This document shows positions 35,266 through 52,275 of a stretch of 64,000 nucleotides of DNA, piece after piece; position 1 is the stretch's first letter, and each line of letters starts with the position of its first letter. The notes beneath the pieces are model-generated. The model saw only the letters and a program-made list of their open reading frames with translations. It was not told the origin of the DNA and did no database searches. Made by a program: the position numbers and the translations under genes. Location of the stretch: assembly GCA_038993745.2 (NCBI GenBank), contig CP160630.1, forward strand, positions 620,001 through 684,000. Reading direction: 5' to 3'. The DNA comes from Aliivibrio fischeri (GTDB taxonomy: Bacteria; Pseudomonadota; Gammaproteobacteria; Enterobacterales; Vibrionaceae).

Positions 35266-35396
35266 AAAAAAAGGGACTCAATGACTCGAATGAGTCCCAA
35301 ATCTGTAATATCCATTTACAGTAATACTTATAAATAAGGAGTAAATACACCTTATCACTATGTCATTTATTAACCAACTATTAAATAAAACAGGTT
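35266..35396 (-). ncRNA. Candidate small RNA element, copy 3 (border copy)
   Basis: About 131 bases that align along their length, on the minus strand, with two tandem elements inside the integron (51802 and 51984). Shared landmarks are AACCTG near the 5' end, ATAGTTGGTT, TTATTTAT, ACTGTA, then a terminator GGGACTCA-loop-TGAGTCCC with seven T. A 33-codon ORF lies just upstream on the same strand, so this copy could be its 3' untranslated region. Calling it an RNA is inference from the conserved terminator-ended layout. Confidence 0.45.
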
Positions 35397-35434: not shown

Positions 35435-35536
35435 TTATGAAATTTGTCCTGAAATAACAAATAGTATTTCAAGCAAGCTAGATACAATCAAATCAAAAAA
35501 TACATAGAAAAGTTCATCATTGATATAAGTAGTCAT
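35435..35536 (-). CDS. Very small hydrophobic peptide (33 residues), possible
   Basis: The frame MTTYINDELFYVFFDLIV, then SSLLEILFVISGQIS, is preceded by a GGCGAGG ribosome site 8 bases upstream. It is one amphipathic-to-hydrophobic helix, a size and composition seen in type I toxins and small membrane regulators. It lies 38 bases upstream of the terminator-ended element on the same strand. There is no homology support, so it may be chance. Confidence 0.35.
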   Translation of the reverse strand: MTTYINDELFYVFFDLIVSSLLEILFVISGQIS

Positions 35537-35873
35537 TTAATTACCTCGCCTTTAGTTATCATGTTGGAGATTATTAGAAAATCACGGAAATACAACTTCA
35601 GTAACTGTAAAATATTACAGTCTTAATGATTTTAATATTTGTATTAGTACCTAATTTCAGGGGGTAGCATACTGATATTAAAGATTATTACAACTCTTAC
35701 TTGATGCTTTTATACTGTTATTATTTAATAAGTTTCTTGTTACTTATTTGCATTTAAAGAAAGGGGTAAATCTATTATTGGAAACTATAAATATTTGCAT
35801 TAATCATTGACATTACACTAAGGGGAGAGTTTAAAGTTAACTCAAATATACAAATTGATTAATGAGGTAACTT
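35537..35873. other. AT-rich border sequence without a gene
   Basis: No frame over 30 codons with a ribosome site was found. It lies between two divergent very small ORFs and may hold their promoters. TAAGGGGAGAG near 35819 has no start codon at the right distance. Confidence 0.4.
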
Positions 35874-35981: not shown

Positions 35982-36130
35982 GCTTAATGAGTTCAATCGT
36001 AATGATTGTTCACATATACTAAAAACTAAAACGCAAAAACAACTTATAGAATCAAGTAATTTTTCTATGAAAATAGTGACATATGAAATTGAAAAAATTC
36101 ATATTTACGACGATTCGGTCATAGTCAAAA
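35982..36130. other. Degenerate sequence before the array end
   Basis: About 150 bases. A short frame from about 36067 (MKIVTYEIEKIHIYDD) has no ribosome site and runs into the half attC. It may be a decayed cassette remnant. Confidence 0.35.
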
Positions 36131-36205
36131 TTGACGTATTAAAACGATAAACACCCGGCAAAATGAGATTGTCGAGTGTAGCAAATCGTGTTGATGCATT
36201 TGTTA
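36131..36205 (-). repeat. Half attC site at the left end of the array
   Basis: It retains TTGACGTATTAAAACGATAA and the arm GTAGCAAATCGTGTTGATGC with the outer GTTA, but the opposite arm (GCATAACACGTTTGCTAC) is missing. It therefore cannot fold the full recombination hairpin. Confidence 0.8.
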
Positions 36206-36896
36206 TATTGCCATATCTGAAATTGCTAATTGAACAGCTTGAGCTGCATGAATTTCAGTTGTGTCGTATAATGGGACTTCTGTATGCGCTTGCTGAATAA
36301 GTAGAGCTATTTCAGTACAACCTAAAATAACAGCTTCAGCGCCCTGCTCATGCAAACTTTTAACGATACTTAAATACTTTTCTCTTGAGTCAGAGTTAAT
36401 AACGCCTCTGCACAATTCATCGTAAATAATGTTATGAACAGTCGTACGATCATTCTCTTCTGGTACAACAACTTCAATACCAAATTTTTCGACCAAGCGA
36501 CTTTTATAGAAATCCTGCTCCATAGTAAAACGAGTACCAAGCAGCCCAACTTTTTTAATGCCATCAATAACCAATTTATTAGCTGTTGCATCGGCAATAT
36601 GAAGAATTGGGATTGATATGCTACTTTCAATTTCAGGCGCAACTTTATGCATTGTGTTAGTACAAATAAGTAGGAAATCAGCTCCACCAGCTTCAACCGA
36701 TTTTGCAGCTTCTGAAAGTATTAATGCAGTTTCATCCCACTTACCTTGATGTTGTAACTTTTCGATGTCATCAAAATTTACGCTGTATAGGCAGATTTTC
36801 GCAGAATTAAGGCCACCAAGTTCATCTTTTATGCCTTCATTAATAACTTGCAGTGGATTCCCAACTCATGCCACCTAACATTCCAATTGTTTTCAT
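36203..36896 (-). pseudogene. Aspartate/glutamate racemase family, frameshifted cassette gene
   Basis: From ATG 36896 the protein starts MKTIGMLGGMSWESTASY and then hits a stop. The family's reading continues in another frame (NEGIKDELGGLNSAKICLYS, catalytic LICTNTMHKVAPE, and second cysteine VILGCTEIALL) to a TAA inside the half attC. A loss of 8 or 11 bases between short direct repeats (AGTTATTA) near codon 18 explains the shift. Restored length is about 234 residues, normal for YgeA/RacX-type racemases, which interconvert L- and D-amino acids. Leftmost cassette. Confidence 0.82.
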
Positions 36897-50365: not shown

Positions 50366-51565
50366 CTACCTAGCTTTATAAGCTATTAAAGCTTGCTGCA
50401 ACCAAGAATCTTGTTCCTTGATATTTTTAATCACCCAATTAATGAATTTAGCTGAATACCTGTGAATATCAGTATAATTATGATACTCAGAATTATTATT
50501 TGCTTTAATTTTATGTTTATAACAGATAGCTTGAAAAGAGTGTTGATTTAATACTACCTTTGATTGCTCTCTATTCATTTGTTCAATAGCAGCCTTTGTT
50601 GTAAAAGGATGCGTTGTATTTAAATCTTTAGCTTGAGTGATAATAACTGCTTGTTGACCATTATCACCCACACTCAGAGTTAAATCGGCCTGACTTGGAT
50701 TTTTTGTTAAAGCTAATTTATAGTCAATTGAGATAGAGTATTTATCTGAGCCAATCTCTTTACTTGTACTTTCAAATTGCTTTAAAAAGTTAGTAACCTC
50801 TACAGCTGTTATATCACCATATGATTCTTTTATGATACCGATTTCAGGATCAGGGCCATCTAACACCAAACTTAACATGCCAACACTCTGGCCAGCTAAA
50901 GGAGAATTCCCCATTTGATTTCGATAACGTTCTTGATAATTTAAAACGTTGGCTTGAAATAATCTTGAAAGTTGAGGCTGTAATTCTGGAATCAGAAGGT
51001 GTGTCGCATGATCTCGTAGCTGTATTAGTGTCTCTATATTTAATTTTACAGGATCATTATTTTGCAACCTCAATGGTAAAGAATCAGATATCGAAATACT
51101 TTTCCCATTTTTATAAAATACTTTCTCCTCACCTAAAGCTTCCAAAATCTCAGCTTTCAAAAATAACTCCCAAGCGTTTACCATCATAATAGTAAATGCC
51201 TCAATCCTATTACATAGGCTAGGTCGGTTATACATTTCTAAAGCTAATGTAAATGCATCTAAACTTCTTTTTATCAACTTCTGATACATTTTCTCATTTG
51301 GCGATAATTTACGCGCAGAAGTACTTTGTGACATTAAGCGAATAAATTCATCATTAGAAACTTTAGAAAGTCCTTCTGATACCCATCCTCCATGTTCAGA
51401 TTTAAAAATATAGGAACCTTTTAATTTCTCACTTATATATTTCCCAACACTTTTAGGGTTGTAACCTGTTGCTATTGCCGCATCTTGATATGTAAAGCTT
51501 TGCGCTTTATCTTCTTGTTCTCGAAAAAAGTCGAGCAAAAGTATTCTTTTATCTTTTCTAGCCAT
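50366..51565 (-). CDS. DUF3644 (HEPN-related) protein
   Basis: About 399 residues from ATG 51565. Residues about 10 to 65 resemble a winged helix-turn-helix (FTYQDAAIATGYNPKSVGKY). Then DUF3644: LIKRSLDAFTLALEMYNRPS, ETLIQLRDHATHLLIPEL with R-D-H-A-T-H as the HEPN R-x4-H motif, and ITAVEVTNFLKQFE. DUF3644 is grouped with HEPN domains and is often found near restriction or defence genes. The C-terminal 80 residues (FTTKAAIEQMNREQSKVVLN) resemble an EC042-2821-like helix-turn-helix region. Confidence 0.85.
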   Translation of the reverse strand: MARKDKRILLLDFFREQEDKAQSFTYQDAAIATGYNPKSVGKYISEKLKGSYIFKSEHGGWVSEGLSKVSNDEFIRLMSQSTSARKLSPNEKMYQKLIKRSLDAFTLALEMYNRPSLCNRIEAFTIMMVNAWELFLKAEILEALGEEKVFYKNGKSISISDSLPLRLQNNDPVKLNIETLIQLRDHATHLLIPELQPQLSRLFQANVLNYQERYRNQMGNSPLAGQSVGMLSLVLDGPDPEIGIIKESYGDITAVEVTNFLKQFESTSKEIGSDKYSISIDYKLALTKNPSQADLTLSVGDNGQQAVIITQAKDLNTTHPFTTKAAIEQMNREQSKVVLNQHSFQAICYKHKIKANNNSEYHNYTDIHRYSAKFINWVIKNIKEQDSWLQQALIAYKAR

Positions 51566-51592
51566 AATCAATATACCCTACTATTGCTTGTT

Positions 51593-51710
51593 AACGCCTG
51601 CATAACACGTTTGCTACCATGCAGATTAAGCTCAAATTTACCACTTAACACGGTAAACTCAAAGAAACCTAGAATGCCGAATGTAGCAAATCGTGTTGAT
51701 GCATTTGTTA
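51593..51710 (-). repeat. attC site
   Basis: 118 bases with the ACCACTTAACACGGTAAAC core and GCTAC/GTAGC arms. Confidence 0.93.
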
Positions 51711-51801
51711 TACGTGTCTACTTTAGTTTGAATAAGCACATATACAAAACTTAATATAACTTACAGCTCATCACAGATAAAACAGTACAAGAGGTATGAA
51801 C

Positions 51802-51930
51802 AAAAAAAGAGCTCGATGACTGGAATCGAGCCCTGAACGTGAAATGCTTGTCTACAGCAACACAAAATTAGTGAGGAGTTCTAGTTTATTACTGGAATCA
51901 CTCCCAACCAACTGTAAAATAAGACAGGTT
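51802..51930 (-). ncRNA. Candidate small RNA, copy 1 (integron cassette)
   Basis: 129 bases. On the minus strand it runs from AACCTGTCTTATTTTACAGT through GCTGTAGACAAGCATTTCAC to the terminator GGGCTCGAT, loop TCCAGTC, ATCGAGCTC and seven T. The GCTGTAGACAAGCATTTCAC block is nearly identical in copy 2, and the terminator stems co-vary while keeping pairing. A stand-alone RNA gene is inferred. The promoter is not evident. Confidence 0.55.
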
Positions 51931-51983
51931 TGTTTTTAATGCTCCATCCTTTTAATAAAGTAAAACTCTCAATATCTCTGCAC

Positions 51984-52114
51984 AAAAAAAAGGACTCATT
52001 GGCTAGAATTGAGTCCCAGAAGTGAAATGCTTGTCTACAGCCACACATAAATAAGTAGTGACTACGATTTTATTACATTGAAATTGCCTTACTAACTGTA
52101 AAATCAGGTAGGTT
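51984..52114 (-). ncRNA. Candidate small RNA, copy 2 (integron cassette)
   Basis: 131 bases. It has the same layout as copy 1: AACCTACCTGATTTTACAGT at the 5' end, GCTGTAGACAAGCATTTCAC, then GGGACTCAATT, loop, AATGAGTCC and eight T. It lies directly upstream of copy 1 on the minus strand, so the two could also be processed from one transcript if its terminator leaks. Confidence 0.55.
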
Positions 52115-52155
52115 ACTATTAAATATTTACAATTTGGACGTCGTTGATTTCGTAT

Positions 52156-52275
52156 AACGCCTGCATAACACGTTTGCTACTATACAGACCTAGCTGAATT
52201 TTAACGCCTTAATCACTGAAACTAAAGGCAAACTGACAACGCCGAGTGTAGCAAATCGTGTTGATGCATTTGTTA
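52156..52275 (-). repeat. attC site
   Basis: 120 bases with the CGCCTTAATCACTGAAAC core and GCTAC/GTAGC arms. Confidence 0.93.

Follow-up and report, generated by a model that had tools for sequence, protein, structure and literature searches.

Tandem terminator-ended elements in an integron cassette of Aliivibrio fischeri belong to a narrowly distributed family of candidate small-RNA genes

The DNA analyzed here, hereafter the window, is a 64,000-nt stretch of the Aliivibrio fischeri genome (two contigs, 4.35 Mb) corresponding to C2:620001-684000. On its minus strand lies a whole integron cassette, W (51592..52154), with attC arms at both borders: a body holding two copies of one element (51711-52154) is followed by the cassette's own attC (51592-51710), and the attC of the preceding cassette (52155..52275, minus strand) forms the border of the body on the intI side. 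The array is headed by an integron integrase gene on the plus strand (C2:713,958-714,941; TIGR02249, 372.9 bits against a cut-off of 265). A script counted 67 attC sites and 66 cassettes in C2:656,924-711,789, W and a second double cassette, X, included, and one further attC, the last detected on this side of the array, occupies window 36104..36206 on the minus strand (84% over 103 nt, E 9.9e-29). Array and elements are read on the minus strand, away from intI at the high-coordinate end, W being ~42 kb from it, and the elements share the orientation of their cassettes, one of the marks of an integron gene cassette. W is such a cassette, an attC-bounded body in an integrase-headed array.

Within W, copy W2 (51984..52114) comes first in the reading direction and W1 (51802..51930) second; a third copy, W3 (35266..35396), lies ~0.7 kb past the last detected attC, at the array end far from intI. 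All three are on the minus strand and are diverged versions of one ~130-nt element, as an earlier note made from the sequence alone had described them, the position of W3 at the array border included. A covariance model of the six copies in this genome (R1) gave W2, W1 and W3 144.2, 143.6 and 117.7 bits, respectively, each being a training sequence of that model. In whole-genome blastn W2 matched W1 at E 7.8e-15, a relation above chance. W3 was absent from the 18 places found with W1 at E up to 10, though it can be aligned, and matched EL58a, a copy in Aliivibrio sp. EL58, at 72% across 132 nt (E 2.4e-11, with ~136 kb of this genome being searched). The blocks that the note listed for the copies needed some correction: W2 starts AACCTA and not AACCTG, W1 is without TTATTTAT and W3 reads ATTTAATAGTTGG.

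Each of these copies ends, on the minus strand, in an intrinsic terminator: W2 with an 8-bp stem and T8 (51984..52017), W1 with a 10-bp stem of other sequence, pairing kept, and T7 (51802..51834), and W3 with an 8-bp stem and T7 (35266..35298). A generic scan limited to loops of 3-8 caught the terminators of W1 and EL58a and missed those of W2, W3 and the copy on contig C1 (chr1). The observation that the stems differ in sequence while pairing is retained extends to all eight copies of the family, in which all stem cells that have a letter on each side form standard pairs (a single cell is a gap); three of the eight pairs of this helix (helix 3) are changed on both sides, and 100% of the counted cells are paired. 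The intrinsic terminator is kept by compensatory change, a feature looked for in small-RNA genes. When a script demanding a perfect stem of at least 6, a loop of 3-24 and then T6 or more was run over the 66 cassettes, sense-strand terminators appeared in only two, W and X, with two in each, and an antisense terminator in three others.

By ORF size W is free of protein genes, as claimed before: its longest sense ORF (55 aa) runs from one element copy into the other, and the longest antisense ORF has 31 aa. The script called 7 of the 66 cassettes gene-less, for which six is the fairer count because one of them (672155-673262) holds a 290-aa antisense ORF. No ORF common to the elements was seen by eye among ORFs of at least 20 aa at three of the six loci (W, W3 and chr1), and a small protein or dual-function RNA was set aside on the lack of a shared frame at those three. 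The cassette that follows in the reading direction (window 50366-51571, minus strand) encodes a 401-aa protein matching PADLOC PDC-S19 (best E 5.5e-78) as well as Pfam DUF3644 and a restriction-endonuclease-like domain, making it a candidate defence gene carried as integron cargo directly downstream of W. Elsewhere in the array a ~152-aa cassette gene occurs in two copies (L020 15248 and 16647, minus strand; C2 ~699-701 kb), and other cassettes, with bodies of equal length (498, 470, 412 and 458 nt), may recur too. A 578-aa protein that by eye looks like a NACHT-like NTPase adjoins intI (L021 8926-10662, plus strand, against the array direction); it had no PADLOC match.

With W1 as query in whole-genome blastn, five of the 18 listed places scored E 4.9e-11 or better, namely W1, W2, X1, X2 and the copy on C1. 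X1 and X2 form the second double cassette (C2:702.5-702.8 kb, 31 kb from W), and the chr1 copy lies at C1:1,283,452-1,283,599 by the coordinates of the covariance model; used as a blastn query, the latter matched 2 of 61 relatives, its own genome and EL58 (G001, same genus). Across 329 family genomes R1 returned six matches in the own genome, two in EL58 (E 6.8e-26 and 7.9e-16; neither copy belongs to the training set) and one in another genus (G249) at E 0.0086. A second model built from all eight copies (R2) and run with laxer filters on 14 genomes of the genus found the same eight strong places in 2 of the 14; its 19 further rows (E 0.017-0.99, ten other genomes) were taken as chance after seven had been re-scored and four of those read as alignments. 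The weak G249 match, read as plain sequence, was dropped as short or terminator-driven like those rows. On 394 genomes drawn from the order, a draw seemingly without EL58, R2 matched the own genome only; both large searches, of 329 and 394 genomes, used stricter filters, which lose weak matches. The sole match to a degenerate pattern outside Aliivibrio in the genome_contigs collection (L039) was assigned to chance, the sequence around the pattern being unlike by eye and the model not matching there at E up to 1. Neither window 51711-52155 nor the EL58a element had a blastn match of plasmid or phage origin, viral_contigs held no match to a 23-letter degenerate pattern, and a plasmid or phage origin was set aside on these results. 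The family, with eight copies spread over six loci of two species (W1, W2, W3, X1, X2 and chr1; EL58a and EL58b in Aliivibrio sp. EL58), is very narrowly distributed. The central proposal of the note, a mobile, terminator-ended and apparently non-coding family present as integron cargo and beside the array, holds for this enlarged set.

Seven of the eight copies sit in, or within ~1.2 kb of, attC arrays. True cassettes account for three loci, W, X and EL58a, the last with a single element; chr1 and EL58b have no recognizable cassette of their own. Three successive attC matches (L041 5009-6616; partial in the case of the first) lie ~1.15 kb from EL58b (L041 7535-7893), which occupies the expected start of a parE toxin gene: the longest ORF there begins inside the element, and the Pfam match of the ParE ORF behind it starts only at profile position 35 of 89. 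The chr1 copy lies in a 403-nt gap between a nuclease-like gene and queD, no attC being detected within the 15 kb examined; a possible attC relic was rejected as a lone 22-nt match inside queD. This gap exceeds by ~350 nt the one in nine relatives that have the same two neighbours. Of 13 other members of the genus, these nine carry the two genes side by side with little between them (52 nt in G002). EL58, G013 and G003 have, by eye, another neighbour than this pair, and G008 was not read by the script. Among the 16 loci searched there, R2 found the element in the own-genome locus only. A MITE-like insertion at chr1, considered for a direct repeat ATAAAAAA and an inverted repeat GTCTAATA noticed by eye, was rejected, the repeats being of low complexity or off the ends; at other places the flanks of the insert matched only twice, and weakly (E 0.005 and 0.009).

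The elements are not always the 3' end of one conserved protein gene, a pattern named in the note as telling against the family, since upstream neighbours differ among the loci. Upstream lies an attC for W2, X2 and EL58a and the sister copy for W1 and X1; before chr1 the nuclease-like gene ends ~100 nt away, a gene present in 14 of 14 genus genomes with the element beside it in one; W3 is preceded by a 33-aa ORF without clear relatives and EL58b by an ORF of 168 aa that 2 of 14 genus genomes have. Downstream settings comprise an attC and then different cassettes (W, X, EL58a), convergent queD (chr1), the parE remnant (EL58b) and a 191-aa ORF (W3). The stretch before W3 (window 35435-35640, minus strand) contains a palindrome CTGTAATATTTTACAG (35605-35620), an SD-like GGCGAGG and the 33-aa hydrophobic ORF (MTTYINDELFYVFFDLIVSSLLEILFVISGQIS), an order that we take to be reminiscent of SOS-controlled type I toxins. 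This ORF had no Pfam match and, in the 13 other genus genomes, only short matches in four (E 0.05-0.1).

Conservation before the terminator stem is concentrated in two blocks of the alignment, columns 3-25 and ~63-86, which flank a variable middle; in 10,000 column permutations this clustering was never reached, whether all eight copies or five lineages were used. The blocks comprise AACCUGUCUGAUUUUACAGUUGG and the GUGUUGCUGUAGACAGGC region, and GUGUUGCUGUAGACA is one conserved block of the element. Copies at unrelated places keep one start-to-terminator unit. Ahead of the terminator, folding is not better than that of shuffled sequences in any of the eight copies (z +0.02 to -1.64, mean -0.81); with the terminator included, z was -2.6, -1.0 and -3.1 for the three window copies. 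A long internal hairpin (82.5% of cells paired in helix 1, 95% in helix 2) was dropped as a conserved feature because only 1 of 10 pairs is changed on both sides and folding does not exceed that of shuffles. Between W and X the element 5' parts and the tail are each 92% identical, the terminators 94% and 100%, and the spacer 78% with 26 indel columns; the equal values for 5' parts and tail give little sign of recent extra constraint on the former.

The EL58a cassette region, its neighbouring attC included, aligns with the W2/X2 end of the double cassettes at 77-78% over ~300 nt. In the tree W1 groups with X1 and W2 with X2 (99/99 and 97/98), the three other inner branches being weak. Because of these groupings, tandem duplication most likely preceded cassette duplication, and from the tree together with the EL58a alignment the most likely course is that tandem duplication turned a single-copy cassette into a double one, of which the array then gained a second copy. 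An integron cassette would once have captured one element copy, a state still seen in EL58; in the present genome the element would have been duplicated inside the cassette, the two copies diverging, before the whole double cassette was copied to a second place in the array, with single copies also arriving close to the borders of arrays and, in one case, far away from all of them. W1 and W2, which in the earlier note share GCTGTAGACAAGCATTTCAC almost exactly, are identical over these 20 nt; X1 departs from them at several positions, a hint of possible gene conversion.

Matches to the sigma-70 consensus were not found in the W cassette (0, with 2.0 expected by chance) or around W3 (0, with 3.2 expected). 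Upstream of chr1 there is one 9-of-12 match, in a stretch with 3 found against 2.4 expected, and the single match at EL58a falls inside the element itself. By eye, an AT-rich TATTTAAT precedes W2, X2 and EL58a. A section heading in the accessible part of PMC11014356 states that such promoters cannot be found in silico. The Rfam search proposed in the earlier note gave no match in the window, the gathering cut-off not being reached, and over five element loci six sub-threshold matches at E up to 1, none of them over the element.

Judging from the sequence, we somewhat favour the reading that the element is a small-RNA gene of ~130 nt, one of a new, narrowly distributed and integron-borne family with an AACC start and a terminator end. 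Its promoter, transcript, association with Hfq and targets are what we infer beyond the alignments. The RNA would start at or near the conserved AACC and end at the intrinsic terminator with its T7-T8 tail; it would most likely pair in trans, with AACCUGUCUGAUUUUACAGUUGG, the GUGUUGCUGUAGACAGGC region or the two blocks together making the contact and Hfq probably binding the U tail, for which a T7-T8 run is suitable, and the variable middle would let copies drift in target choice. No target emerged: as a candidate, intI ranked 36 of 141 initiation regions taken from ~3% of the genome. The complement of the 5' block with one mismatch occurs at 11 places, five of them family copies and six outside, against five for a reversed control pattern; no start codon of an ORF of at least 80 aa lies beside the six. 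Strong duplex energies for two duplicate cassettes had prompted the idea of pairing with attC-derived RNA. When 8 of 29 attC were compared with 100 shuffles per copy, sense attC gave no signal (z +0.26 to -1.67), and antisense attC gave z from +0.51 down to -2.33; 2-4 of 100 shuffles did as well as chr1, W3, EL58a and EL58b, and 13-65 did as well as the other four. Pairing with attC RNA was set aside on this inconsistency among the eight copies.

The element might serve as a terminator or insulator module with which the cassette stops transcription along the array, any RNA being the tail of read-through transcripts; we regard this as unlikely, though deserving of weight. Two terminators in series would suit an insulator, the W cassette has no recognizable promoter, and other gene-less Vibrionaceae cassettes act on array transcription according to the accessible part of PMC11014356. 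In some cross-lineage pairs the terminator is also the best-kept part, with 93% against 67% before the stem for W2-EL58a, 89 against 66 for W3-EL58a and 82 against 58 for W2-W3, but this does not extend to pairs with W1 or chr1. A terminator, moreover, needs only ~35 nt, yet two blocks in the ~95 nt ahead of it are conserved between species, and the chr1 copy keeps them where no array exists to insulate. It seems very unlikely that the element is a relic in decay, a repeat without function that is passively carried along when cassettes are copied: its patchy distribution, the equal divergence of 5' parts and tail between W and X and the two copies lacking a recognizable cassette would all fit, but selection must at some time have acted to give the compensatory changes in the stem and the block-wise conservation, and all eight copies have an intact stem. 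A tandem arrangement of RNA elements, each closed by a terminator, also resembles tandem attenuators, in which receptors each with a terminator would act in cis on a downstream gene as an attenuator or riboswitch; this we consider extremely improbable and reject because, by position and reading, no downstream gene is shared at the six loci, and the Rfam results, with no match in the window or over the element at five loci, likewise argue against it.

The small-RNA reading has a variant in which the 5' block doubles as a LexA operator and the RNA is induced on DNA damage, which appears quite unlikely. A LexA-box-like palindrome, CTGT-N8-ACAG, lies in the 5' block of W1 (51912..51927; ranks 16-17 of 47 together with X1) and is exact in five of the eight copies (W1, X1, chr1, EL58a, EL58b), with three of the eight inner positions varying among those five; it is broken in W2, X2 and W3 (scores of 7.2 for W2 and 6.0 for W3). 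The genome has 47 such sites against 26 for a reversed control. Scored with a matrix of seven boxes from five genes recognized from their translations (recA, dinB, lexA, recN, topB), the best element, EL58a, reaches 16.6 and touches the leave-one-out range of the recognized boxes (16.4-19.8). The own-genome boxes (14.5-15.3) rank 16-18 of the 47 exact-pattern sites, just below the recognized SOS group, and they and EL58b (13.6) fall below the gap after rank 14. Between 7 and 24% of random inner octets score as well as the element boxes, the window count of the pattern (2) was reached by 17 of 100 shuffles, and CTG-N10-CAG is absent from the 19-kb stretch with intI, where 2.0 were expected by chance. 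As CTGT and ACAG both sit inside longer conserved blocks, an RNA function would conserve them too. A LexA operator in the element is a weak, testable lead and not a finding. Its extension, that LexA would repress W1, X1 and chr1 in a DNA-damage-induced family while W2 and X2 have lost the operator and become constitutive, is decidedly unlikely; if true, cassette shuffling would multiply two tandem regulatory RNAs that diverge from each other and are controlled differently. Identical CTGT-N8-ACAG pairs also occur elsewhere on C2 (G000:C2:1333338 and 1347142, 14 kb apart; C2:1003060 and 1054334, 51 kb apart), which suggests repeated elements.

The title of Chen et al. 2011 is said to call sRNA-Xcc1 of Xanthomonas integron-encoded. 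The precedent that the earlier note drew from it is real as to the RNA, since Northern blotting showed sRNA-Xcc1 to be a small RNA (PMC2996969, in the part accessible), and like the element it is a small-RNA gene in an integron cassette with a narrow distribution. The likeness is one of description, and sRNA-Xcc1 has 88 nt against ~130 nt. The accessible text of PMC12444791 reports signs of horizontal transfer for the sRNA-Xcc1 cassette and states that its widespread form also encodes symE, opposite to Pc transcription, although the review PMC8876359, as far as its accessible part goes, describes the Xanthomonas cassettes as ORF-less. The element differs from the sRNA-Xcc1 cassette in its sense orientation and tandem copies, and no symE-type opposite ORF was found in W, where the longest ORFs are the 55-aa sense and 31-aa antisense frames. 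The same part of PMC8876359 has some ORF-less cassettes encoding regulatory RNAs, and mentions Treponema cassettes from oral metagenomes that are non-coding with attC, like W, and for which antisense promoter activity is reported. Closer in host are the gene-less promoter cassettes of Vibrionaceae superintegrons, among them F1-F3 of V. fischeri ES114, which are ORF-less like W and come from a related bacterium; in the accessible text of PMC11014356 these gene-less cassettes show sense-strand promoter activity, with mapped starts for F1 and F2. Compared by description, F1-F3 are read as promoters for downstream cassettes, whereas W has two sense terminators and so should hinder downstream expression. 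Our search of the full-text literature (supplements and most subscription papers lie outside it) found no paper on this element family or on a tandem small-RNA cassette in Aliivibrio.

Integrons have been studied mainly as collectors of protein genes, and the element suggests that RNA genes may be collected and multiplied as well. With its tandem and cassette duplications and its copies outside cassettes, the family would be an example of RNA genes that the same machinery captures, multiplies and diversifies, and the natural series of single cassette, double cassette and chromosomal copy would let new regulatory RNAs be watched as they arise. For the role of gene-less cassettes, the present case means that these can bring terminators and not only promoters.
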